Of a DNA stretch of 12,315 bases, positions 2,399 through 12,315 are shown piece after piece (position 1 is the stretch's first letter; the number at the start of each line of letters is the position of its first letter). Source of the DNA: Deltaproteobacteria bacterium (GTDB lineage: Bacteria; Myxococcota; Myxococcia; Myxococcales; Myxococcaceae). The notes beneath the pieces were generated by a model that was given only the letters and a program-made list of their open reading frames with translations, ran no database searches and was not told the origin of the DNA. The DNA is taken from assembly GCA_016875515.1 (NCBI GenBank), contig VGRA01000031.1:1-12315 (forward strand). Direction: 5' to 3'. The position numbers and the translations under genes were made by a program.

Positions 2399-2935
2399 AT
2401 GCAGGACCTCCGAGACAAGCTGCTGAAGGCCGGCCTCGTCACCCGCGAGCAGGCGGACCAGGCCACGCGCAAGGAGCCGCCCGCCGCCCCGCGCGCGCGC
2501 CCGGTCCAGGCCCCCGCCGAGCCGAGGGTGCCGAGGCTGCCCCCGCTGGCCCTGCCCGGGACGGCGGCCCACAGCCGGCTGCTCGCCCTGCAGCAGCAGG
2601 AGCTGGACGCGAAAATCCGCCAGGCGGTGAAGGCCGGCGAGGTGCCGCTCGAGCCCGGCGAGGTGACGTTCCACTTCGTCACCCGCAAGCAGAAGCTGCG
2701 GCGGCTGGAGCTCTCCGCCTCGCAGGCGAAGGCCCTGGAGGACGGGACGCTGGCGGTCGTGGAGCGGCCGGAGCCCGGCGGCATCGAACACGCGCTGGTG
2801 CCGGCCGCGGTGGCGGACCAGCTGGCGCTGGTGTCCAGCAAGGTGGTGCGGTTCTACAACCGCCCGGGCGCCCCCGTGGGCTTCGCCGAGGCGGCCCCCG
2901 CGGAGGGCTCCGGGGACGGCGGCGACGGGGGCTGA
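2399..2935 (+). CDS. YaiL-like DUF2058 protein (178 aa)
   Basis: The opening Leu-Arg-Asp-Lys-Leu-Leu-Lys-Ala-Gly-Leu-Val (residues 4-14) is the hallmark start of DUF2058 proteins such as E. coli YaiL, usually described as putative nucleic-acid-associated proteins. A Pro/Ala/Arg-rich linker (about 22-55) follows. The conserved C-terminal core starts near residue 60: an Ala-Lys-Ile-Arg-Gln helix, a Val-Thr-Phe-His-Phe-Val strand, Leu-Arg-Arg-Leu-Glu-Leu, then Leu-Val-Pro near the end. The length is close to the family norm. The usual long Lys/Gln-rich coiled segment is replaced here by a Pro-rich linker. The last ~12 residues are Gly/Asp-rich. Its 3' end overlaps the convergent kinase gene by 82 bases. 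The biochemical role of the family is not established. Confidence 0.72.
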   Translation: MQDLRDKLLKAGLVTREQADQATRKEPPAAPRARPVQAPAEPRVPRLPPLALPGTAAHSRLLALQQQELDAKIRQAVKAGEVPLEPGEVTFHFVTRKQKLRRLELSASQAKALEDGTLAVVERPEPGGIEHALVPAAVADQLALVSSKVVRFYNRPGAPVGFAEAAPAEGSGDGGDGG

Positions 2936-4197
2936 ACCGGCAGGCGCACGGTCAAGGTGGCCCCCTCCCCCTGCCGGGACTGAACGGACACCTCGCCCCC
3001 CCAGCGCCCAGGCAATCCCCTGCACGATGTAGAGCCCCAGCCCGAGCCCGCCGTAGCTGCGCTCGGACACCGCGCGCTCGAAGCGGCCGAAGATGCGTCC
3101 CAGGTGCTCCGGCGCAATGCCGATGCCGTGGTCCTGCACCTCCAGCGTGGCCGTGCCCTGCTGGCGCCTCACGCGCAGCTCCACCGCCCCGGCGCCGTAC
3201 TTGAGGGCATTGTCGAGCAGATTCACCACCACCTGCTCCAGCCGGCGCGCGTCCCAGTGGCCCACATACGCCTCGGCCTCATGGCGGAACTGCACCCCCG
3301 CCTGCTGGGCCTGGCCCTCCAGGCGCGCCGCCGCCTCGCGGACCAACTGCGCAAGGTCCACCGGCTCCAGCTGCATGCGCAGGCGCCCCGAGTCGATGCG
3401 GGAGACGTCCAGCAGGTCGTTCACCAGATCCGCCACCTTCCCCACCTGACGGAGCCCCATCCCCAGGTGCCGCCGCTCCCGCAGCGTGGCCTCGGTCTGC
3501 TCGCGGCCGGCCAGCTCCCGCATGAGCAGCTGAAGCTTCAGCTGCAGCGGCGTCAGGGGCGTCTTCAGCTCGTGGCTCGCCACCTGGAGGAATTCGTCCC
3601 GCAGCTTCACCGCTTCCCGCAGCGTGCGCTCCGAGCGCTTGATGTCCGTCATGTCCATCACCAGCGCCACGTAGCCGCGCACCTGGCCCTCCGCGTCCCG
3701 GTCCGGCACGCACAGGGTGGTGAGATCCCGCGCCTCGGGCCCCTCCCCCAGCCGGGCCACGGATCGCACCGCCTTGCCCTCGAACACCGGGGCCACCGCG
3801 GCCAGCGCCTCCTCGGCGGTATGGAAGCCGCCCAACCTGGCCGACCGGTTGGGATCCGCCGGGTTGCCGGCCACGTAGTCGGTGAAGGCCCGGTTCTGGA
3901 ACAGCGCCCGGCAGTCCCGGTCCACGTACAGGACCATGGCCGGGAGCGCGTCGATGACCAGCCGCAGCTGCGCCTCGCTGCGCTCCCGCGCAGCAGCGCC
4001 TCGTAGGCGTGCAGGCGGCCCACGATGACGTCCGTGGCGAACTGGATGTCCCGCTCGAACCGGGCGCGGTCCCGCGAGGCGGTGGCGCGCTGCTGCAGCA
4101 CGCCGGTGGCAAGGGTGAGCAGCAGGCCGCCTGCCAGCACGCCCCACGGCAGCCACCGGCCCGGCCTCCGCTGTCCCCTGCGCTGCGCCACCTCCAC
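2854..4197 (-). pseudogene. Sensor histidine kinase (TM / partial CHASE / PAS / HisKA / HATPase) broken by two frame lesions
   Basis: The parts of one kinase lie in two frames. Frame A starts at GTG 4197, or better GTG 4191, which sits 8 bases after GGAGG. It encodes a basic N-terminus, one membrane helix (residues ~15-36) and the beginning of a CHASE sensor domain, ending His-Ala-Tyr-Glu-Ala-Leu-Leu-Arg-Gly near 3985. The frame then changes between about 3990 and 3976, and the next recognisable unit is already the PAS domain (about 3980-3640). HisKA follows, with phospho-acceptor His in Ser-His-Glu-Leu-Lys-Thr-Pro at 3572-3574. Then come the N-box Asn-Leu-Leu-Asp-Asn, the G1 motif Asp-His-Gly-Ile-Gly-Ile near 3133-3116, and the G2 motif Gly-Leu-Gly-Leu-Gly-Leu. 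A run of seven C (2996-3002) throws the last strand out of frame. With six bases the expected Gly-Gly-Glu-Val-Ser-Val and Leu-Thr-Val-Arg-Leu-Pro appear and stop at 2854. Sequencing or assembly error is the main alternative. It lies ~32 bases downstream of gcdH, same strand. Confidence 0.75.
2996..3002. other. Seven-base G/C homopolymer at a frameshift in the kinase gene
   Basis: Plus strand C7, coding strand G7. Reading six G restores the standard end of the HATPase domain; reading seven sends translation into a long antisense frame that runs past the DUF2058 gene to 2024. It is the exact site of the 3' lesion. Confidence 0.8.
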
Positions 4198-4228: not shown

Positions 4229-5413
4229 TCAGCCGCCGAACGCGTCCAGGCCCGTGATGGCCTTGCCCAGGATGAGGGTATGCACCTCGTGCGTGCCCTC
4301 GTAGGTGAAGACCGACTCGAGGTTCAGCATGTGACGGATGGCGGGGTACTCGTCCGTGATGCCGTTGGCGCCGAAGATGCTGCGCGCGGACCGGGCAATC
4401 TCCAGCGCCGCCTTCACGTTGTTCCGCTTCGCCAGGGACACTTGCTCCGGCGTCACCTTCCCCTCGTCCTTCAGACGGCCGAGGCGCAGGGACACCAGCT
4501 GTGCCTTCACGATCTCCTGCAGCATGTCCGCCAGCTTCTCCTGCGTGAGCTGGAACCCGGCAATGGGCTTGCCGAACATCTGGCGCGAGAGCGCGTACTC
4601 CCGCGCCCCCTCGAAGCAGGCAATGGCCGCCCCGGTGACGGCAAACGCAATGCCGGCGCGCGCGGAGTTGAGGCAGCTGAGCGGCCCGCGCAGCCCCTGC
4701 ACCCCGGGCAGCAGGTTGGCCGCCGGCACGCGCACGTCCTGGAAGGAGAGTTCGGAGGTGAACGACGCGCGGAGCGAGAACTTCCCGTGGATGTCCTGCG
4801 CGGTGAAGCCCGGCATCCCCTTCTCCAGCAGGAAGCCGCGGATGCTCTTGCTGTCCCCGTCATCCACCTTCGCCCAGACGATGGCGACGTCCGCGATGGA
4901 GCCGTTCGTAATCCACGTCTTGCTGCCGTTGAGCACGTAGTGTTCCCCGTCCTTGCGCGCCCGGGTGCGCATGCCGCCCGGGTCGCTGCCGAAGTCCGGC
5001 TCGGTCAGCCCGAAACAGCCAATGGCGCGCCCCTTCGCCATCTCCGGCAGCCAGCGGCGCTTCTGCTTCTCCGAGCCGAACTGCCAGATGGGGTACATGC
5101 ACAGCGACGTCTGCACCGAGGCGAAGCTGCGCAGCCCCGAGTCCCCGCGCTCCAGTTCCTGCAGAATGAGGCCGTAGGCCACGTTGTTCATCCCCGCGCA
5201 GCCGTACTCGGTGGGCAGCGGCGCCCCGAAGACGCCCATCTCCGCCAGCGTGGGCACCACCTCCATGGGGAACTTCCCGTCCCGGAACCAGCGCCCCACC
5301 TTCGGCAGGTAGTCGCGGTCGATGAAGCCGGCCACGAGATCACGCGCGGCGCGCTCCTCGGCGGTCAGCATGTCGTCGATTCGGTAGAGGTCCGTCACGG
5401 GCGAGCGGGACAT
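4229..5413 (-). CDS. gcdH: Glutaryl-CoA dehydrogenase
   Basis: This is a full-length acyl-CoA dehydrogenase fold (394 aa). It oxidises and decarboxylates glutaryl-CoA to crotonyl-CoA plus CO2 using FAD, in the cytoplasm. GcdH-specific features are the Leu-Arg-Ser-x-x-Ser-Val-Gln-Thr-Ser-Leu segment, where Arg95 matches the arginine that holds the distal carboxylate of glutaryl-CoA. Others are Phe-Gly-Leu-Thr-Glu-Pro-Asp-Phe-Gly-Ser-Asp (134-144), and Ile-Phe-Gly-Ala-Asn-Gly-Ile-Thr-Asp-Glu-Tyr-Pro (346-357). The catalytic base is Glu372 in Tyr-Glu-Gly-Thr-His-Glu. The ATG at 5413 gives the usual family length; only a weak GGAG lies upstream. It is divergent from the SDR operon with 94 bases between them. 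In this setting it fits the last dedicated step for glutaryl-CoA from aromatic, lysine or tryptophan breakdown. The broken kinase gene follows it on the same strand. Confidence 0.93.
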   Translation of the reverse strand: MSRSPVTDLYRIDDMLTAEERAARDLVAGFIDRDYLPKVGRWFRDGKFPMEVVPTLAEMGVFGAPLPTEYGCAGMNNVAYGLILQELERGDSGLRSFASVQTSLCMYPIWQFGSEKQKRRWLPEMAKGRAIGCFGLTEPDFGSDPGGMRTRARKDGEHYVLNGSKTWITNGSIADVAIVWAKVDDGDSKSIRGFLLEKGMPGFTAQDIHGKFSLRASFTSELSFQDVRVPAANLLPGVQGLRGPLSCLNSARAGIAFAVTGAAIACFEGAREYALSRQMFGKPIAGFQLTQEKLADMLQEIVKAQLVSLRLGRLKDEGKVTPEQVSLAKRNNVKAALEIARSARSIFGANGITDEYPAIRHMLNLESVFTYEGTHEVHTLILGKAITGLDAFGG

Positions 5414-5454
5414 GGGGTTCTCGGATGCTCCGGCTGGTTGTGGTGTGCCAGAGC

Positions 5455-5484
5455 GGGTTAGCCGGGGCGTGCGCCCTTCGTCAA
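5455..5484 (-). promoter_or_regulatory. Candidate gcdH promoter
   Basis: Minus-strand TTGACG (5479-5484; five of six to the -35 consensus) is followed after 18 bases by TAACCC (5455-5460). This gives a leader of roughly 35 bases before the gcdH ATG. The -35 lies only five bases from the -10-like element of the divergent SDR gene, so the two promoters would be physically interlocked. Confidence 0.4.
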
Positions 5485-5489
5485 TCTGC

Positions 5490-5495
5490 TAGGGT
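5490..5495 (+). promoter_or_regulatory. Candidate -10 element of the SDR-RidA-crotonase-ACAD operon
   Basis: TGC-TAGGGT resembles an extended -10 and ends 12 bases before the ATG at 5508. A matching -35 is not evident. AGGG within it is too far from the ATG to be an ideal ribosome binding site. The same TAGGGTCYGC string occurs at 10262-10271 before the other plus-strand operon. Confidence 0.35.
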
Positions 5496-5507
5496 CCGCC
5501 GCCGCTC

Positions 5508-6260
5508 ATGGAATCCATCGCGGTCGTGACGGGGGCCTCGCGCGGCATCGGGCGCGCGGTGGCCGAGGCCTTCGCCGAGGCGGGACACGTCGTCTGGGCG
5601 CTCGCCCGCACGGAGGAGGCCCTGCAGTCACTCGCGGAGGCCCACCCGGGCCGGGTGAAGCCGCTCCTGTTGGACGCCTCCAACGCGAACTCGGTGGTGG
5701 CCGCCGCGAAGGCGGTGCTGCAGGGCGGCGCCCCGCGGGTGCTGGTCAACAACGCCGGCATCGCCCTGTCCGCGCCGCTGAAGCGCACCAGCACGGAGGA
5801 CTACCGCCGCGTCATGGCGGTCAACGTGGAGGCCCCCTTCCTGCTCTGCAGGGAGCTCATGCCCGCCATGGCGGACGCGGGCTTCGGCCGCGTCATCAAC
5901 GTGGCCAGCACCGCCGCGCTCAAGGGCTTCACCTACACCTCCGCCTACTGCGCATCCAAGCACGCGCTGCTGGGGCTCACCCGGGCGCTGGCGCTGGAGT
6001 ACGCCCGCAAGCACGTGACGGTGAACGCCGTCTGCCCGGGCTGGACGGACACGGACATGCTGCAGCGGTCGGTGGACACCATCGTGGAGGCCACGGGCCG
6101 CACCGCGGAGCAGGCGCGCGCGCAGCTGGCCGGGATGAACGCCATGGGCACGCTCATCCGCCCGCGGGACGTGGCGGCCCTGTGCCTCTTCCTCGCCTCC
6201 GACGCCGCCTCGGCCGTCACCGGCGCCGCGTACACCATGGACGGAGGGGAGGCGGTATGA
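5508..6260 (+). CDS. Short-chain dehydrogenase/reductase, FabG-like (250 aa)
   Basis: This is a classical SDR with every key motif: cofactor loop Thr-Gly-Ala-Ser-Arg-Gly-Ile-Gly (8-15), Asn-Asn-Ala-Gly (81-84), active-site Asn106, Ser134, Tyr147 and Lys151 (Tyr-x-x-x-Lys), and a Pro-Gly-Trp motif near 177-179. The closing Thr-Gly-Ala-x-Tyr-Thr-Met-Asp-Gly-Gly is typical of 3-oxoacyl reductases and 3-hydroxyacyl-CoA dehydrogenases of this fold. Length is normal. It is the first gene of a plus-strand operon; its TGA overlaps the ATG of the RidA gene (ATGA), implying translational coupling. With CoA enzymes on both sides, oxidation of a 3-hydroxyacyl-CoA or alicyclic hydroxy-CoA intermediate is the most likely role. 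The substrate and the NAD/NADP choice cannot be read securely. Confidence 0.9.
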   Translation: MESIAVVTGASRGIGRAVAEAFAEAGHVVWALARTEEALQSLAEAHPGRVKPLLLDASNANSVVAAAKAVLQGGAPRVLVNNAGIALSAPLKRTSTEDYRRVMAVNVEAPFLLCRELMPAMADAGFGRVINVASTAALKGFTYTSAYCASKHALLGLTRALALEYARKHVTVNAVCPGWTDTDMLQRSVDTIVEATGRTAEQARAQLAGMNAMGTLIRPRDVAALCLFLASDAASAVTGAAYTMDGGEAV

Positions 6261-6679
6261 GCCTGCGCGTGCTGCTGCCGGAGGGCTGGACGAAGCCGAA
6301 GGGGTACGCCAACGGCGTGCTCGCGGAGGGGCGGATGGTCTTCACCGGCGGGCAGGTGGGGTGGGACCCCACCTCCGAGACGCCGCGCTTCCCGGCGGAC
6401 TTCGCCGGCCAGTTCGAGCAGGCGCTCGCCAACGTCTGCGCCGTGCTGCGCGCGGGGGGCGCCGAGCCCTCGCACCTGGTGCGCCTCACCGTCTACGTCA
6501 CCGACAAGCGCGAGTACCTCGCCTCGCTGAAAGAGGTGGGGGCCGCGTGGAAGCGCCACGTCGGCCGCCACTACCCGGCCATGGCGCTGGTGCAGGTGTC
6601 AGGCCTGGTCGAGGACGCGGCCAGGGTGGAGATGGAGGCCACCGCCGTCATTCCCACGTCCCCCGGAGGACAGCCATGA
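6257..6679 (+). CDS. RidA/YjgF-family protein lacking the canonical substrate arginine (140 aa)
   Basis: RidA proteins hydrolyse reactive enamines and imines with release of ammonia. The fold is clear: Val-Phe-Thr-Gly-Gly-Gln-Val-Gly (28-35), the Gln-x-x-x-Ala-Leu-x-Asn helix (52-59), Val-Arg-Leu-Thr-Val-Tyr-Val-Thr-Asp (75-83), and terminal Val-Glu-Met-Glu-Ala (124-128). Where E. coli RidA has Pro-Ala-Arg (Arg105, which binds the free carboxylate of 2-imino acids), this protein has Pro-Ala-Met (Met109, codon 6581-6583). It therefore should not be a standard 2-iminobutanoate deaminase. A CoA-thioester or other enamine lacking a free alpha-carboxylate is a reasonable inferred substrate. The ATG at 6257 is chosen because it gives the ATGA overlap with the SDR stop, is preceded by GGGGAGG, and matches family length; a longer in-frame start at 6182 lies inside the SDR gene. 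Confidence 0.88.
   Translation: MSLRVLLPEGWTKPKGYANGVLAEGRMVFTGGQVGWDPTSETPRFPADFAGQFEQALANVCAVLRAGGAEPSHLVRLTVYVTDKREYLASLKEVGAAWKRHVGRHYPAMALVQVSGLVEDAARVEMEATAVIPTSPGGQP
6665..6670 (+). promoter_or_regulatory. Ribosome binding site of the crotonase gene
   Basis: GGAGGA lies five bases before the ATG at 6676, inside the end of the RidA gene. It fixes this start in a reading frame that otherwise stays open upstream to 6361. Confidence 0.75.
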
Positions 6680-7470
6680 GCCCGCAGAGCTTCCGTTACG
6701 AGGCGAAGGACGCGGTCGGCGTCATCACCTTCACCCGCCCGGACGTCCTCAACGCGCTGACCTTCGAGGTGTACCACGAGCTGCGCGACCTCTTCTTCGA
6801 GCTGGAGCGGGACACCGCGGTGCGCGCCGTGGTCATCACCGGCGAGGGGCGCGGCTTCTGCTCGGGCGGGGACGTCAACGACATCATCGGACAGCTGTTC
6901 AGCCGGGACATGCCGGGGCTGGTGGAGTTCACCCGGATGACGTGCGACCTCATCAAGAACATCCGCGCGCTGCGCAAGCCGGTGGTGGCGGCGCTCAACG
7001 GCACGGCCGCGGGCGCCGGGGCCGTCATCGCGCTCGCGGCCGACCTGCGCGTGGCCTCCGACAAGGCGAAGATCGCCTTCCTCTTCGTGAAGGTGGGGCT
7101 GGCCGGCGCGGACATGGGCGCCGCCTACCTGCTGCCGAAGGTGGTGGGGCTGTCCCGCGCCACGGAGCTGCTCTACTTCGGGGACGCCATCGACGCGGCC
7201 ACCGCGGAGCGGTACGGGCTGTTCAACAAGGTGGTGGCGCCGGAGGCGGTGCAGGACGAGGCGCTCGCCTGGGCCAGGCGCCTGGCCGCGGGCCCCACGT
7301 TTGCGCTCGGGATGACGAAGGAGTTGCTCAACGCCGAGCTGAACGCGGACCTCTACGGGGCGCTGGACAACGAGGCCCGCGCCCAGGCCGTGTGCATGCA
7401 GACGAAGGACTTCCGCGAGGCCTACGAGGCCTTCACGGAGAAGCGCCCCGCGCGCTTCACCGGACGCTGA
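6676..7470 (+). CDS. Crotonase-superfamily enzyme (enoyl-CoA hydratase-like, 264 aa) without the two hydratase glutamates
   Basis: The crotonase fold is well marked. It has the first oxyanion motif Gly-Phe-Cys-Ser-Gly-Gly-Asp (60-66), and [10 protein letters not shown] (106-115) for the second. Aligning by eye to rat enoyl-CoA hydratase, Glu144 falls on Val117 and Glu164 on Phe137. Both acid/base residues for water addition are therefore gone. Asp146, in Val-Gly-Leu-Ala-Gly-Ala-Asp-Met-Gly, lies where other members (PaaG, MenB/BadI-like, 4-chlorobenzoyl-CoA dehalogenase) carry a functional Asp. Ring-cleaving hydrolase or isomerase chemistry on a CoA ester is thus more likely than simple hydration; this is inference. 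It overlaps the RidA stop (ATGA) and has a strong GGAGGA site. The Lys/Arg-rich C-terminus is complete. Confidence 0.88.
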
Positions 7471-7483
7471 GGGGAGAGGCACC

Positions 7484-8608
7484 ATGGCCGTGGGACTTCT
7501 GACGGACGCGCACGAGCGGCTGCGGGCGGAGGTGCGGGAGCGCTTCCGGACGCTGGAGGCCCCCGCCCAATACGAGGGGGACGCCGCGGTGGCCGCCGCG
7601 GTGAAGGGGCTGGGGCTGTACGGCTACCTCGTGCCCGAAGTCTACGGCGGCGTGCACCCGGGCGTGGACGTGCGCTCGGTGTGCGTGCTGCGCGAGGAAC
7701 TGGCCTACCGCAACGGCGCGGCGGACTCGCTCTTCGCGGTGCAGGGGCTGGGCAGCCACCCGGTGCTGCTCGGCGGAAGCGAGGCGCAGCGGCAGGCGCT
7801 CCTCCCAGCCGTGGCCCGCGGCGAGCTGCTGTTCGCCTTCGCGCTGACCGAGCCCGAGGCCGGCTCGGACGTGGCGGGGCTGTCCACCTCGGCCCGTCCG
7901 AACGGACATGGCGGCTACGTGTTGGACGGCCACAAGCGCTTCATCAGCAACGCGGGGGTGGCCACGCACTACACCGTCTTCGCCCGCACCGGCGAGGGCA
8001 GAGGCGGCATCAGCGCCTTCGTGGTGCCGGCAGACGCCCCCGGGCTGGAGGTGCGCGCGGGGATGGCGCTGCTCGGGGACCACCCCATTGGCGAGCTGTT
8101 CTTCCGCGGCGTGCGCGTGCCCGCGGAGGCGCGGCTGGGGGCGGAGGGGGCCGGGATGAAGCTGGCACTCTCCACCCTGGACGTCTTCCGGGGCACGGTG
8201 GGGGCCGCGGCGCTGGGCATGGCGCGGCGCGCGCAGGACGAGGCGGTGGCGTACGCGAAGGGGCGCAAGCAGTTCGGCGCGCCGCTCGCGGAACTGCCCG
8301 CCGTGCAGGGGCTGCTCGCGGACAACGCGGTGGACCTGGAGGCGGCCACGCTGCTCGTCCACAAGGCGGCGGCCACCAAGGACGGCGGGGCCGAGCGCGT
8401 CACCTACGAGGCGGCGGTGGCCAAGCTGTTCGCCACGGAGGCGGCCCAGCGGGTGGTGGACCGCGCGCTGCAGGTGCACGGCGGCAACGGCGTGGTGCGC
8501 GGCTTCGCCGTGGAGCGGCTGTACCGGGACGTCCGCGCGCTGCGCATCTACGAGGGGGCGTCCGAGGTGCAGCGGCTCGTCATCGCCCGCGCGCTGCTCA
8601 AGGGGTAG
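7484..8608 (+). CDS. Acyl-CoA dehydrogenase (374 aa)
   Basis: This is an FAD-dependent acyl-CoA dehydrogenase, distinct from the GcdH paralogue in the same window. Domains run in the usual order: helical N-domain (1-115), beta domain opening with [11 protein letters not shown] (118-129), and the C-terminal helical domain. In the last are Arg-Lys-Gln-Phe-Gly (261-265), Val-His-Gly-Gly-Asn-Gly (331-336) and the catalytic Glu357 in Ile-Tyr-Glu-Gly-Ala-Ser-Glu. The base position is the common medium/short-chain type. It starts 13 bases after the crotonase stop behind GGGGAGAGG. Substrate chain or ring specificity cannot be deduced; operon context favours an intermediate of aromatic-acid breakdown. 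Its 3' end overlaps the convergent minus-strand gene by 11 bases. Confidence 0.92.
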
Positions 8609-9152
8609 CCGTCCCCGCGTCCGCCGCAGGGGGCGCCTTGTAGACGGGGTCCATCATCACCCCGCGGATGTCCTTGCGCAGCACGGGCGTCAGCGTGCTT
8701 GCGTCCAGCGTGTAGTCCGGCCGGTCCCCGAGCAGCAGGTAGGCCCCGTCCGGCAGCCGCCCGCCGTACGGGGCGAGGTGCTCGCTCATCACCTCCGCGC
8801 TCAACCGGGAGAAGCGGTAGGGCTTGCCGGCGGAGTTCCGCAATTCCGTCCCATTGACCAGCAGCACCCGGATGCCGCCGCGGGACTCCACCGTGAGGGT
8901 GTCGCCCGGCAGCGCCCGGGCCACCCGCAGCTGCGGGAAGGGGGATTGCGACAGCACCATCACCACGGCGCCGCGCTCCACGGGGAAGTCGCACTCCCCG
9001 GTGTAGACGTGGACGAACTCCCCCTTGCGCACCAGCGGGTGCAGTTGCCCGGTGCGCACCACCGTCCCCTGCCTCACGCACTCCGCGTGGGTCGCCATCC
9101 CCGCCATCCCCGCCACCACCGCCCACATCCTCCCAAGGCCTCGCACGTTCAT
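8598..9152 (-). CDS. Exported signal-peptidase-I-like (S26 fold) protein without the Ser/Lys dyad (184 aa)
   Basis: Residues 1-23 form a signal sequence ending Thr-His-Ala, with probable cleavage before Glu24. The rest follows the box order of S26 peptidases. A Gln-Leu-His-Pro (36-39) stands where Ser-Met-x-Pro holds the nucleophile and is followed by Lys-Gly-Glu (43-45). Then Arg-Val-Ala-Arg-Ala-Leu-Pro-Gly-Asp (76-84) stands where Lys-Arg-x-x-Gly-x-Pro-Gly-Asp holds the general base. Finally [11 protein letters not shown] (140-150) matches Gly-Asp-Asn-Arg-Asp-Asn-Ser-x-Asp-Ser. Neither catalytic Ser nor Lys is present, so the protein should be a non-proteolytic S26 homologue in the periplasm or envelope. 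The ATG at 9152 overlaps the stop of the glycosyltransferase gene (ATGA), which selects this start and couples the two. The family call is by eye. Confidence 0.6.
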
Positions 9153-10246
9153 GACTCCCGGCTCCACTCGGCCCACTTGCCCTTGTACTGGGACGCGCGC
9201 TGCAGCGTCTCCTTCAACGCGGCGAGCGCCACGGTGTTCCCGTCCTGCGCGTAGCCCTGCAGTTTCTCCTTGGCCGCCGGGATGCGGCGGAGGAACTCCG
9301 CCACCGCCTCTGCCGACAACTTCGGCACGTACATCCCGTAGCCCAATTGCTCCAGGTAGCGGGCGTTGAGTGTCTGCTCGAACTGCCCGACCACCGGCAC
9401 GGACAGCAGCGGCTTGCGCAGGTACACCGCCTCGCTCATCAGCGTGAAGCCGCCGCCCGCCACCACCCCTCGCGCCGTGCGGAGGTCCTCCACGAAGCGC
9501 TCCTCGCTGAAGGGCAGGTAGGTGAGGTTGTCCTCCACCACGGGCTCGGCCAAGCCGCGACGCAGGCCGTAGATGCGGCACGGCAGCCGCGTCTGCCGGA
9601 GGATGTGTGGGAGGTCCGTGTTGGACTCGGAGGTGGTGTAGACCACCAGGTGCTCGCCCGCCTCCGCGCGTGCGGCCAATATCTCCGGCCGCAGGATGGA
9701 CGGCACCAGCGTGGTGCGCTCCTTGCGCACCCGCGGGAAGAAGAAGCTGGTGACCAGGTAGTGGAAGCAGCCCGGCAGCTTCCCCTTCACGATGGAGCGG
9801 ATGAGCTCGAAGTTCCCCTCGAACCCCGCGAGCACCTCCGGCGGGTGCTCGCAGCGGTTGATGACCTGCATGTTGTCCACGCTCACCACGGGGACGCGCA
9901 GGTTCTTCCCCACGTAGAAGGCGAAGGACTCGAAGTCGCTCACCACCACGTCCGGGCGGAAGCGGCGAACCAGGTCCAGGTAGGTACGGACGTTGTGCGG
10001 CCAGCCCCGCAGCGCCCCCTTCGCGTTCTCCACGAAGGTGCGGACGTTCCGCACCGCGTTGTGCTCGTACTGGATGGTGAGGCCCCAGATGGGGTGGACG
10101 TTGGGGAAGCGGGCCGCCAGGAACGGCTGCGCTCGCCCCGAGGCCACCACCTGCACCTCATGGGACTTCACCAACTCCTCGAGCAGCACGCGCGAGCGGA
10201 TGGCGTGCCCCATGCCCTCGCCCACCACCCCGTAGAGGATGCGCAT
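9149..10246 (-). CDS. GT-B glycosyltransferase, MurG/UGT-like (365 aa)
   Basis: The N-terminal Rossmann half opens Tyr-Gly-Val-Val-Gly-Glu-Gly-Met-Gly-His (5-14), the Gly-x-Gly-His acceptor-side loop of GT-B enzymes. The C-terminal half has the nucleotide-sugar donor motif: Ala-Gly-Gly-Gly (263-266), Ser-Glu-Ala (271-273), Pro284, Gln288, Gln291 and Asn294. The N-terminal sequence resembles the MJ1255-type family of putative UDP-sugar transferases. No membrane helix or signal peptide is evident, so it should act on the cytoplasmic face. Sugar and acceptor are unknown. The ATG at 10246 is chosen because it starts exactly at the first beta strand; the frame stays open far upstream only as antisense of the ligase gene. 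It is co-transcribed with the S26-like gene, suggesting a cell-envelope or exported glycoconjugate role unrelated to the flanking catabolic genes. Confidence 0.85.
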   Translation of the reverse strand: MRILYGVVGEGMGHAIRSRVLLEELVKSHEVQVVASGRAQPFLAARFPNVHPIWGLTIQYEHNAVRNVRTFVENAKGALRGWPHNVRTYLDLVRRFRPDVVVSDFESFAFYVGKNLRVPVVSVDNMQVINRCEHPPEVLAGFEGNFELIRSIVKGKLPGCFHYLVTSFFFPRVRKERTTLVPSILRPEILAARAEAGEHLVVYTTSESNTDLPHILRQTRLPCRIYGLRRGLAEPVVEDNLTYLPFSEERFVEDLRTARGVVAGGGFTLMSEAVYLRKPLLSVPVVGQFEQTLNARYLEQLGYGMYVPKLSAEAVAEFLRRIPAAKEKLQGYAQDGNTVALAALKETLQRASQYKGKWAEWSRES

Positions 10247-10257
10247 GGGCCGTAACC

Positions 10258-10286
10258 TTAATAGGGTCTGCGTCCCCATGTCCCAA
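10258..10286 (-). promoter_or_regulatory. Candidate promoter of the glycosyltransferase pair
   Basis: Minus-strand TTGGGA (10281-10286) and TATTAA (10258-10263) are 17 bases apart. The -10 ends 11 bases before the ATG at 10246. An AAGG ribosome site nine bases from the ATG lies in the same stretch, so the 5' end decides which is used. Confidence 0.4.
10262..10267 (+). promoter_or_regulatory. Candidate -10 element of the ligase operon
   Basis: TAGGGT ends ten bases before the ATG at 10278 and overlaps the divergent glycosyltransferase -10 by two bases. No convincing -35 is visible and there is no Shine-Dalgarno near the ATG. It shares TAGGGTCYGC with the SDR operon. Confidence 0.33.
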
Positions 10287-10550
10287 CCCCACGGACTCCT
10301 CCGCGCAGCCGGCCTCGGCCTGGGCGCCGCCCTGTTCTTCGGCGGACTGGGGACGCTCTCGCTGGGGGCGCGCAGCGCGCTCACCACGGTGGACTGCGCG
10401 GCGCTGTCGGAGGCCGAGTGCGCGCTCGCGTCCGACCTGCGGCGGGACGAACTGCGGCTGTACCTGCCGGAGGGGGCCGCGCTGGTGATGCTGTCCGCGG
10501 CGGTGTTCCTGGGCCTGCGCAAGCTGGACAAGAGGGAGAAGACGCCATGA
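10278..10550 (+). CDS. Small two-helix membrane protein (90 aa), first gene of the ligase operon
   Basis: No known family is recognised. It has two hydrophobic helices (about 7-30, rich in Gly/Ala/Leu, and 61-80). They enclose a short loop with two cysteines (Cys40, Cys48) and acidic residues, and a basic tail Arg-Lys-Leu-Asp-Lys-Arg-Glu-Lys follows. Given the positive-inside trend the C-terminus should be cytoplasmic and the Cys-bearing loop periplasmic. The ATG at 10278 is preferred over the one at 10239, which lies inside the divergent glycosyltransferase coding region and would add a polar extension before the first helix. Its TGA overlaps the ligase ATG (ATGA), so translation of the two is coupled. 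The tight link to an aromatic-acid CoA ligase is suggestive, but no function can be assigned. Confidence 0.7.
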   Translation: MSQPHGLLRAAGLGLGAALFFGGLGTLSLGARSALTTVDCAALSEAECALASDLRRDELRLYLPEGAALVMLSAAVFLGLRKLDKREKTP

Positions 10551-12091
10551 CACTCGACCCACACGCGCTGCCCGAACGGCTCAACCTGGTGGAGCCGTTC
10601 CTGCTCTGGCAGGTACCCGGGCGGGAGAACGCCCCGGCGCTCATCACGGACGCGCGCACCGTCACCTACGGGGAGCTGGCAGACGCCGTGCACCGCGCCA
10701 CCGCCGTCTTCAAGTCTGCCGGACTGCTGCCCGAGCAGCGCGTCCTGCTCATGCTGCCGGACGTCCCCGAGTTCGCCTCCGCTTGGTTCGCCACGGTGAA
10801 GGCCGGGGGCGTGGCCTGCGCCATTAACCCGGAGCAGAAGCCCGAGGACGTCCGCTACTACCTGAACTACACGCGGGCGCGGCTGCTGGTGGTGCACGCC
10901 TCGGCGCTGCCGCTGGTGGAGCCGGTGCTCGCGGACTGCCCGCTCCTGGCGAAGGTGCTGGTGGTGGGCGGCGAGCCGGGGCGGCACCTGCGGTACGAGG
11001 CGGCGCTGGAGGCGGCCACCCCGGACACCTCCGTCTTTCCCTCGCACCGGGACGACGCGGCGGTGTGGCTCTTCACCTCCGGCAGCACCGGGCAGCCCAA
11101 GGCCGCGGTGCACAAGCAGCACGACTTCGTCTTCAACGCCCTCAGCTTCGGCCTCCCGGTGCTGGGCTACACGGCCGCGGACCGCTGCCTGTCCGTGCCG
11201 CGGCTGGCCTTCGGCTACGCGCTGGGCACCAACCTGCTCTTCCCGCTCATGGCGGGGGCCGCCGCCATCCTCTTCCCGGAGAAGCCCACCCCGGAGCGGC
11301 TGTGCGAGCAGGTGACGCGCCACCGCCCCACCTTCCTGACCTGCGTGCCCACCTTCCTCAACCAGGTGGCCCAGTCCGCGGTGGCGAAGCAGACGGACTG
11401 GTCCGGGGTGCGGCTGGCGGTGAGCGCCGGCGAGGCGCTGCCGGCGGAGCTCTATTACCGCTGGATGGCGGCAACGGGCGTGGAGGTGCTGGACGGCATC
11501 GGCTCCGCGGAGATGTTCCACATCTTCATCACCAACCGCGTGGGGGACGTGAAGCTGGGGAGCCTGGGCCGCGTGGTGGAGGGCTACGAGGCGAAGGTGT
11601 GCGACGACGCGGGGCGCGAGCAGCCCCACGGCGACATCGGAACGCTGTGGATCCGCGGGGACTCCATGGCGCTCGAGTACTGGCAGCAGCACGACAAGAG
11701 CAAGGCCGCCTTCCGCGGAGACTGGTGCGTGTCCGCCGACACGTTCTACCGGGACACGGAGGGCTACTTCTATTTCTGCGGCCGCGGGGATGACCTGCTG
11801 AAGGTGGGTGGCAAGTGGGTCTCGCCGCTGGAGGTGGAGGGGGCGCTGCTGCGCCACCCGGCCGTGGCGGAAGCGGCCGTGGTGGGCTTCAAGGACGCGG
11901 ACGGGCTGGAGAAGCCGCGCGCGTACTGCGTGCTGAAGCCGGGGACGGCGCCGGACGAACTGCTCGAGGAGGTGCTCCGGGCCCATGTGCGCGCGCTGCT
12001 GGAGCCCTACAAGGCGCCGCGGAAGGTGACGTTCCTGGACGCCCTGCCCCGCAGTGACCGCGGCAAGGTGCTGAAGGGGCAGCTGCGGTGA
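10547..12091 (+). CDS. Benzoate-CoA ligase family enzyme (514 aa), possibly 2-aminobenzoate-CoA ligase
   Basis: This ANL adenylate-forming enzyme activates a carboxylic acid with ATP and CoA. Motifs in order: Leu-Phe-Thr-Ser-Gly-Ser-Thr-Gly-Gln-Pro-Lys (175-185), the phosphate loop; Asp-Gly-Ile-Gly-Ser-Ala-Glu-Met-Phe-His-Ile-Phe (316-327), the form of the A5 motif typical of benzoate-CoA ligases; Gly-Asp-Trp (391-393) and Gly-Arg-Gly-Asp-Asp-Leu-Leu-Lys-Val-Gly-Gly-Lys-Trp (412-424), the hinge; and Arg-Gly-Lys507, the catalytic lysine of the C-terminal subdomain. Length fits the family. The start at 10547 overlaps the preceding stop (ATGA). The stop overlaps the next gene (GTGA). The aryl substrate is not readable from motifs alone. 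RidA and creatininase neighbours favour an amino-benzoate; benzoate itself or hydroxybenzoates remain possible. Confidence 0.92.
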   Translation: MTLDPHALPERLNLVEPFLLWQVPGRENAPALITDARTVTYGELADAVHRATAVFKSAGLLPEQRVLLMLPDVPEFASAWFATVKAGGVACAINPEQKPEDVRYYLNYTRARLLVVHASALPLVEPVLADCPLLAKVLVVGGEPGRHLRYEAALEAATPDTSVFPSHRDDAAVWLFTSGSTGQPKAAVHKQHDFVFNALSFGLPVLGYTAADRCLSVPRLAFGYALGTNLLFPLMAGAAAILFPEKPTPERLCEQVTRHRPTFLTCVPTFLNQVAQSAVAKQTDWSGVRLAVSAGEALPAELYYRWMAATGVEVLDGIGSAEMFHIFITNRVGDVKLGSLGRVVEGYEAKVCDDAGREQPHGDIGTLWIRGDSMALEYWQQHDKSKAAFRGDWCVSADTFYRDTEGYFYFCGRGDDLLKVGGKWVSPLEVEGALLRHPAVAEAAVVGFKDADGLEKPRAYCVLKPGTAPDELLEEVLRAHVRALLEPYKAPRKVTFLDALPRSDRGKVLKGQLR

Positions 12092-12315
12092 CGCGCGCCG
12101 CGCACGTCTCCTGGGAGGCGGCGAAGCGGCTCGCGGAGGCCGGCGCGGTGGCGCTGCTCCCCGTGGGCAGCACCGAGGCGCACGGCCCGCACCTGCCGCT
12201 GTCCGTGGACGTCCTCATCGCGGAGGCAGTGGCGGAGCGCACGGCGGCCCGGCTGGAAGCGGCGGGCCGCCGCGCGGTCATCTTTCCCGCCCTCAGCTAC
12301 GGCGTCACCGCGTTC
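12088..12315 (+). CDS. Creatininase-family amidohydrolase (N-terminal 76 residues, cut by window end)
   Basis: The GTG at 12088 overlaps the ligase TGA (GTGA) and opens a frame running off the window. Residues 23-41 carry the family signature Leu-Leu-Pro-Val-Gly-Ser-Thr-Glu-Ala-His-Gly-Pro-His-Leu-Pro and, after three more residues, Val-Asp. Glu30, His32 and Asp41 match in spacing three metal ligands of creatininase (Glu34, His36, Asp45). The remaining ligands lie beyond the window. The family includes creatinine amidohydrolase, MftE-type peptidases and other C-N hydrolases, so the substrate is open. Coupling to an aromatic-acid ligase suggests a nitrogen-releasing or amide-hydrolysing step of the same pathway rather than creatinine use. 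Confidence 0.88.
   Translation, partial: MTRAAHVSWEAAKRLAEAGAVALLPVGSTEAHGPHLPLSVDVLIAEAVAERTAARLEAAGRRAVIFPALSYGVTAF

Follow-up and report, generated by a model that had tools for sequence, protein, structure and literature searches.

A creatininase-family protein in a probable tryptophan-fed anthraniloyl-CoA pathway of a member of the Myxococcaceae

We have analysed contig C31 of a Myxococcaceae draft genome that is 87% complete and lies in 904 contigs; the window referred to below is this whole contig, 12,315 nt in length, and other genomes, contigs and loci carry our own labels (G, C and L numbers). The window holds two blocks of genes, a crotonase- and Rid-containing block 1 and a block 2 in which the gene for an aryl-CoA ligase is followed by one for a protein of the creatininase family. 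On balance we favour a reading in which both blocks serve an aerobic anthranilate pathway that runs via CoA esters and is fed by tryptophan, with the creatininase-family protein acting in an upper route that has no kynureninase; all of the reactions are inferred from sequence. The pathway itself is of a known kind, with its genes in a split arrangement, and the new part is block 2, where a creatininase-family protein is the partner of the ligase.

In the proposed scheme, tryptophan 2,3-dioxygenase (TDO) would open tryptophan, and an upper route without kynureninase but with the creatininase-family metal hydrolase would lead to anthranilate, which the ligase would convert to 2-aminobenzoyl-CoA. 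A 2-aminobenzoyl-CoA monooxygenase/reductase (ACMR) would then hydroxylate and reduce this ester to 2-amino-5-oxocyclohex-1-enecarbonyl-CoA, the enamine of which would be hydrolysed by a Rid-family protein lacking the usual arginine, giving a cyclic dione ester and ammonia. The ring of the dione ester would be opened by a crotonase of an Asp type that has lost both glutamates, and an SDR and an acyl-CoA dehydrogenase (ACAD) would take part in the chain steps.

We think it likely that the creatininase-family protein acts in the upper pathway, between TDO and the ligase, because its occurrence is tied more closely to TDO and the ligase than to the ring enzymes, and because the protein excludes kynureninase. 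More tentatively, kynureninase may have given way to a PLP-free metal hydrolase of the creatininase family, both in many Myxococcota and in one Sphingomonas at least, so that hydrolytic C-C cleavage (or coupled amide and C-C cleavage) would yield anthranilate for the ligase. Kynureninase is a PLP enzyme with a fold other than that of the creatininase family. As direct PLP-free cleavage of kynurenine would be chemically hard, the hydrolase might instead act on a kynurenine-derived beta-diketone such as 2-aminobenzoylpyruvate, the transamination product of kynurenine. Hydrolysis of this compound is feasible, and IolN (3-dehydro-scyllo-inosose hydrolase by its NCBIfam name) offers a parallel for diketone hydrolysis in the same family.

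The creatininase-family protein and its distribution

The creatininase-family gene has a GTG start and runs off the end of the window, with its first 76 codons at 12088..12315 on the plus strand. On comparison of the contigs, the last 143 bases of the window overlap the start of C129 with one mismatch, and C129 completes the gene (L009:1-650), giving a protein of 244 amino acids, before continuing with a LysR gene and then unrelated genes. The C129 part scored 139.8 bits against PF02633 and 76.2 bits against TIGR04448 (cut-off 235), while the ortholog L128 fell below all of the curated cut-offs (TIGR04448, 106.9 against 235; TIGR03964, 93.3 against 172; IolN, 51.2 against 245). At least 1522 relatives were found at E 1e-20. 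The AF2 model of L128 had a pLDDT of 92.5 and its best PDB matches were creatininases. Across 43 sequences E31, H33, D42 and H117 were invariant and E119 was present in at least 90%; we take these E, H, D, H and E positions to be the metal ligands of creatininase. The model and the alignment together indicate that the protein keeps the fold and the metal-site pattern of the creatininase superfamily (PF02633).

We assessed the distribution of the gene in 60 genomes, comprising the window's own genome together with its family and order, counting creatininase orthologs at E <1e-50 and kynureninase over the TIGR01814 cut-off. An ortholog was found in 18 of the 60, these being 17 of the 18 genomes with ACMR plus G031, so that only one of the 42 genomes without ACMR has the gene. 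Kynureninase was found in 20 of the 60 genomes, but in none of the 18 with creatininase and none of the 18 with ACMR, and the window's own genome gave no match to it. TDO was present in 43 genomes, including our own (contig C326); 18 of these had creatininase, 20 had kynureninase, none had both and five had neither, and no genome among the 60 had either enzyme without a TDO match. Some TDO matches were divergent and came in pieces of approximately 80 bits or less (G038, G040, G043, G046 and G052). When only TDO matches of more than 120 bits were counted, 38 genomes were left, 16 with creatininase, 20 with kynureninase, none with both and two with neither. Within the window's family the division was complete: TDO occurred in 32 of the 36 genomes, 15 of them with creatininase and 17 with kynureninase, none with both and none with neither. 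Distant creatininase-like matches of about 30 bits in four kynureninase genomes (G006, G047, G051 and G055) were not counted as orthologs.

Among 195 genomes of the phylum, searched at E 1e-25, a creatininase ortholog was found in 29, of which 25 had ACMR (17 of the 18 above and eight of the 11 others). Nine further creatininase genomes (G070, G075, G076, G108, G109, G110, G161, G162 and G195) were checked for kynureninase, and only G075 passed. Outside the phylum, Sphingomonas changbaiensis has TDO and no kynureninase match. Eleven Proteobacteria have an ACMR cluster without creatininase, its absence being seen at the locus only, and kynureninase was found in nine of these and in all six that have TDO. 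A quick TDO tree of 50 rows, from which six of the 56 were omitted as short or divergent (G196, G197, G040, G046, G205b and G207) and which has some long branches, including the row joining S. changbaiensis, requires at least five changes of creatininase/kynureninase state, at least three of them forced by well-supported branches.

The creatininase gene adjoins the ligase gene in the window's genome, in most relatives of the family outside genus g5, and at L253 and L254, which come from two genomes of a different family within the phylum. In S. changbaiensis it is the last gene of an operon that reads SDR-MarR-crotonase-Rid-ACMR-ligase-creatininase. The two genes lie apart in genus g5, G036, G040, G070 and G164, and approximately 3 kb apart in G046. 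A LysR gene occurs within a few kb of creatininase in many relatives. Among the best 20 of 365 matches in plasmid records there was no close relative of the protein, the highest identity being 35%.

We also considered the other steps that a route from tryptophan would need. No KynB match exceeded the curated cut-off of 223 in the 60 genomes; KynB-like matches of 146-153 bits, below that cut-off, were seen in three creatininase genomes (G008, G024 and G036), two of which (G008 and G036) also have kynureninase-like matches of 137-141 bits. The KynB model is too patchy for telling formamidases apart. The TDO loci hold a conserved protein of about 150 amino acids beside TDO that had no Pfam match. 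In nine creatininase genomes TDO is accompanied by an Asparaginase_2 Ntn hydrolase (PF01112, tested on L223), a possible formamidase, at L223, L225, L226, L229, L230, L231, L233, L235 and L280; it was unmatched in eight other TDO loci of creatininase genomes, two of them short, and in the three TDO loci of at least 10 kb that were fetched from kynureninase genomes (L236-L238). An aminotransferase gene between the blocks in G008 was unmatched in the other loci fetched by then, and so gives no evidence of a conserved kynurenine aminotransferase.

Genes for the CoA-ester pathway

The ligase gene (10547..12091, plus strand) scored 452.4 bits against TIGR02262, for which the cut-off is 375.25. Its best PDB match was the anthranilate-CoA ligase 4wv3 (389 bits), followed by the benzoate ligase 2v7b (365 bits), and from its sequence the enzyme is probably a 2-aminobenzoate-CoA ligase. 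Block 2 consists of this gene, the creatininase-family gene and a preceding small open reading frame, each overlapping the next, by four bases in the case of ligase and creatininase. The small frame (10278..10550, plus strand, 90 amino acids), the 3' end of which overlaps the ligase start, had no Pfam or NCBIfam match, and among the relatives' loci its only counterpart was a weak one in G024 (35% identity).

The preliminary description of this DNA had proposed a CoA-dependent pathway, probably for an amino-aromatic acid such as 2-aminobenzoate, and had suggested looking beyond position 12315 for a homologue of the monooxygenase/reductase. A homologue is indeed present in the genome, at C89:5847-8081 rather than on C129, where it scored 1094.9 bits against NF006101 (curated cut-off 1078). 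We take the PRK08255/NF006101 family to be ACMR. Counting ACMR only where both domains were present and Rid at E <1e-30, we found ACMR in 18 of the 60 genomes; Rid was present in all of these and additionally in G009 (Fisher 2e-14, relatedness uncorrected); ACMR is cut by the contig start in G013 and lies in two pieces of one frame in G010. No ACMR gene was found beside the two blocks, C129 having only the genes described above. In the ACMR neighbourhoods that we fetched from the family there was no match to Rid, crotonase, ACAD, ligase or creatininase, and SDR-like genes were seen in two only. The TDO-like genes that G040 and G046 have in the vicinity of ACMR are divergent and stand among Smr and EVE genes, and we gave them little weight. 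Pieces of ACMR in the planctomycetes G196 (L145) and G197 (L135) are 59-65% identical to that of the window's genome, compared with 50-52% for Paracoccus and Azospirillum and 51% for Sphingomonas.

Block 1 comprises SDR, Rid, crotonase and ACAD genes, all on the plus strand, with four-base overlaps between SDR and Rid and between Rid and crotonase. The SDR (5508..6260; Pfam adh_short_C2) is a putative 3-hydroxyacyl-CoA-type dehydrogenase, and the ACAD (7484..8608) has Pfam Acyl-CoA_dh domains and, like the SDR, is conserved in the block in relatives. The grouping of these genes is not due to chance, since all four occur together, in conserved order, in 15 of the 18 Rid loci fetched from relatives. 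Of the others, L061, which starts immediately ahead of Rid, has crotonase and ACAD genes and lacks an SDR match, and L064 (G009) and L065 (G010) have Rid without other block 1 genes beside it.

We then examined 80 named loci, the best-matching ones out of 418 retrieved with the Rid of the window, with flanks of up to 10 kb on each side and genes counted by bit-score thresholds; they are mostly from Proteobacteria. Besides Rid itself (80 of 80), SDR was counted in 68, crotonase in 66, ACAD in 66, ACMR in 50, a thioesterase in 49, TDO in six and kynureninase in one. All six TDO genes stand beside ligase or ACMR, and in a Roseivivax crotonase/ACAD locus kynA adjoins the ligase. The Paracoccus denitrificans cluster reads ACMR-SDR-MarR-crotonase-ACAD-thioesterase-Rid-ligase-ABC transporter, and that of Azospirillum thermophilum resembles it. 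The thioesterase gene lies beside Rid in many proteobacterial clusters (for example L136, L140 and L014); in Myxococcota loci there were only two weak thioesterase matches, both away from Rid (L049 and L124). Because ACMR and Rid co-occur and block 1 is conserved in relatives, we conclude, as far as sequence can tell, that block 1 represents the lower half of an anthraniloyl-CoA pathway that is already known.

The Rid-family protein (6257..6679, plus strand; PF01042, 75.5 bits) scored below the TIGR00004 cut-off (63.5 against 106.25) and has a methionine, Met109, at the position of Arg105, the arginine with which imine deaminases bind the carboxylate. In 93 distinct loci, with seven doubly recorded contigs among 100 counted once, this position is Met in 91 and Ile in two, and the Tyr17 and Glu120 positions are each kept in 90. 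Passages of PMC4433059 describe the known imine hydrolysis by Rid as dependent on the arginine, and AmnE, a 2-aminomuconate deaminase of the Rid fold that handles an enamine of amino-aromatic catabolism, is described in parts of PMC6742747 as having a conserved Arg117. RidA has Arg105, to which we take Arg117 of AmnE to be equivalent, and the methionine here would fit a substrate that is a CoA ester; such a substrate would lack a free carboxylate, and therefore the arginine would not be needed.

The crotonase (6676..7470, plus strand) belongs to the NF006107/PRK08258 family (384.4 bits, cut-off 330). The preliminary description had called it non-canonical, and rightly so: Val117 occupies the position of Glu144 and Phe137 that of Glu164, the catalytic glutamates in rat enzyme numbering. 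Over 82 distinct loci the first position is Ile in 57, Val in 20, Ala in two, Cys in one and uncovered in two, and the second is Phe in 81 and uncovered in one. Asp146 is found in 81, that is, in all that are covered, the remaining one being uncovered. As both glutamate positions are replaced and Asp146 is conserved, these residues indicate that the protein is not an ordinary enoyl-CoA hydratase, and it is a fair guess that it opens the ring.

A gene for a glutaryl-CoA dehydrogenase, GcdH (4229..5413, minus strand), is divergent from block 1, with 94 bases between them. Its best PDB matches, 3sf6 (461.1 bits) and 2eba (459.5 bits), are both glutaryl-CoA dehydrogenases, and the Arg of DSGLRS and the Glu of YEGT, which we take to be the catalytic residues, align with those of the solved enzymes. 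The identity previously proposed for this protein is thus sound, and by sequence it is a good glutaryl-CoA dehydrogenase. GcdH was near block 1 in four of the 18 fetched loci and in seven of the 80 named loci (two of them from Paracoccus), and may be just an ordinary neighbour and no member of the pathway. The suggestion that the pathway ends in glutaryl-CoA is unproven, as nothing in the analysis shows it.

Blocks 1 and 2 are separated by a minus-strand gene pair, an MJ1255-type glycosyltransferase (9149-10246; 216.2 bits, cut-off 195.9) and a signal-peptidase-like gene read by eye (8598-9152). In many relatives the glycosyltransferase gene and the ligase gene are neighbours in opposite orientations. 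At 2399-4197 the minus strand has a gene that resembles those of sensor histidine kinases and the plus strand has a small gene, both read by eye.

Alternative roles for the creatininase-family protein

Several observations weigh against the reading that we favour. G045 and G058 have a strong TDO and neither enzyme, as do G038, G043 and G052 with their divergent TDO-like matches, and kynureninase-like matches of 95-141 bits occur in G008, G022, G036 and G040. In the wider set, G159, G160 and G164 have creatininase and no ACMR at E 1e-60; G075 has creatininase together with a kynureninase that barely passes (247.5 against 246.4) and only a divergent TDO-like match; G076, which is 75% complete, has creatininase and ACMR and no TDO match; and the proteobacterial genomes G198, G200 and G204 have kynureninase and no TDO match. 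G031 has TDO, ligase and creatininase, with no match to ACMR or Rid. The genomes are related to one another, so that p-values are not independent. ACMR is not clustered with the blocks, lying on another contig in the window's own genome and at a distance of approximately 95 kb from block 1 in G040, whose genome is a single contig, and our Rid is without the arginine on which, in passages of PMC4433059, known imine hydrolysis depends. The pattern in G031 (L256 and L235) may reflect gaps in its assembly of 1260 contigs, or anthraniloyl-CoA may be put to a different use there.

Members of the creatininase family hydrolyse cyclic amides and formamides (creatininase itself; FAPy deformylase). A less likely reading is that the protein is an aryl-formamidase acting on N-formylkynurenine or N-formylanthranilate, with an unrecognised, non-homologous kynureninase completing the upper route. 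Such a role would suit the retained fold and metal-site pattern, and another formamidase is needed since no KynB match passed the cut-off in the 60 genomes; however, it leaves the absence of kynureninase beside creatininase unexplained, and G008, G024 and G036 already hold a formamidase candidate in their KynB-like matches, which, though below the cut-off, speak for the kynureninase slot over the formamidase slot. We consider it unlikely that the protein works in the lower pathway, either hydrolysing the dione ester ring in the manner of IolN or removing the enamine nitrogen, the latter as in the preliminary description, which had RidA and/or this protein remove nitrogen. The gene's association with that of the ligase and, in S. 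changbaiensis, with a whole ACMR operon would agree with a lower-pathway role, as would the distant IolN match (51.2 bits against 245). On the other hand, G010 has ACMR and Rid and no creatininase, although it is a weak counter-example in that its ACMR is split, its Rid is 47% identical and has no block 1 neighbours; creatininase was undetected in 49 of the 50 named loci that contain ACMR, only L139 having both; in G031 it occurs although neither ACMR nor Rid was matched; and the gene tracks TDO.

Two further alternatives concern the pathway and the pattern as a whole. That the substrate of the ligase and ACMR is derived from some other aryl acid (salicylate, benzoate or a hydroxybenzoate, for example) is very unlikely in our judgement: annotated records do name the ACMR family salicylyl-CoA 5-hydroxylase/oxidoreductase, and the ligase family model TIGR02262 is that of a benzoate-CoA ligase, but the constant company of Rid, the TDO links and the anthranilate-CoA ligase as best structural relative all speak for anthranilate, and two Arthrobacter ligases, named with ACMR homologues in passages of PMC3534580, were shown there to use it. 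No BoxABC gene, of the type that the preliminary description had named as a refuting neighbour, was noticed by eye among the open reading frames of the window and C129; the genome as a whole was not searched for them. We likewise think it improbable that the complementarity of creatininase and kynureninase merely mirrors common descent within a few clades instead of function. Most of the genomes do come from one family, and the labels are strongly clustered on the quick TDO tree, but the three to five changes at least that the tree requires, the separate case in Sphingomonas and the fact that no TDO genome of the window's family lacks both enzymes argue against it. For the creatininase-family protein the simplest reading, and a likely one, is an upper-pathway role in the step or steps that lead from the TDO product to anthranilate.

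Relation to known systems and significance

The aerobic 2-aminobenzoyl-CoA pathway of Azoarcus evansii is covered in part of the review PMC4539516. As in that organism, the genome studied here has the ACMR fusion, a 2-aminobenzoate-CoA ligase, beta-oxidation-type genes and a Rid-type protein; unlike it, the genes are distributed among several loci, with neither a MarR nor an ABC transporter gene seen next to them, and there are instead LysR, a creatininase-family partner of the ligase and no kynureninase match in the genome. The Azoarcus cluster reportedly contains three genes of beta-oxidation along with one for a 'putative translation inhibitor' (Schühle 2001). A cluster of this type has thus been described already, and a pathway with a Rid-type gene is not new. 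The plasmid cluster of P. denitrificans PD1222 (L014) is similar, with ACMR, SDR, crotonase, ACAD and Rid 42-58% identical to ours, but it differs in having an acyl-CoA thioesterase and an ABC transporter and a ligase below the TIGR02262 cut-off (357 against 375.25), and no creatininase gene occurs in the 14.8 kb shown. Anthranilate-grown Arthrobacter is described in passages of PMC3534580 as containing anthraniloyl-CoA and the CoA ester of a C7H8O4 acid. The latter may be a cyclohexanedione ester, as deamination would give.

The creatininase-family protein resembles creatininases of the 1j2t/1q3k type in fold (TM approximately 0.75) and in the metal-ligand positions E, H, D, H and E, but is only about 25% identical to them and does not keep Trp154 and Trp174. 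With kynureninase (TIGR01814) it would share its proposed place in the pathway only, the formation of anthranilate downstream of TDO. Among the titles and abstract openings listed in our literature search no paper linked creatininase-family proteins to anthranilate or kynureninase, and the words creatininase and anthranilate together matched only a review of uremic toxins.

The preliminary description was therefore right in part. All seven of the proteins that it named are present as open reading frames at or near the positions given, and its 2-aminobenzoate pathway is supported by ACMR in the genome and near Rid in 50 of the 80 named loci, while its role for creatininase was not upheld. For the Rid family, the group without arginine would offer a testable substrate for a type that had been regarded as inactive on imines. 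In the 2-aminobenzoyl-CoA pathway, the Asp-type crotonase is a candidate enzyme for opening the ring. The textbook route from kynurenine to anthranilate is through kynureninase, and the clean exchange of that enzyme, in presence and absence, with a creatininase subfamily of no assigned function makes it possible to test specifically and cheaply for a second solution.

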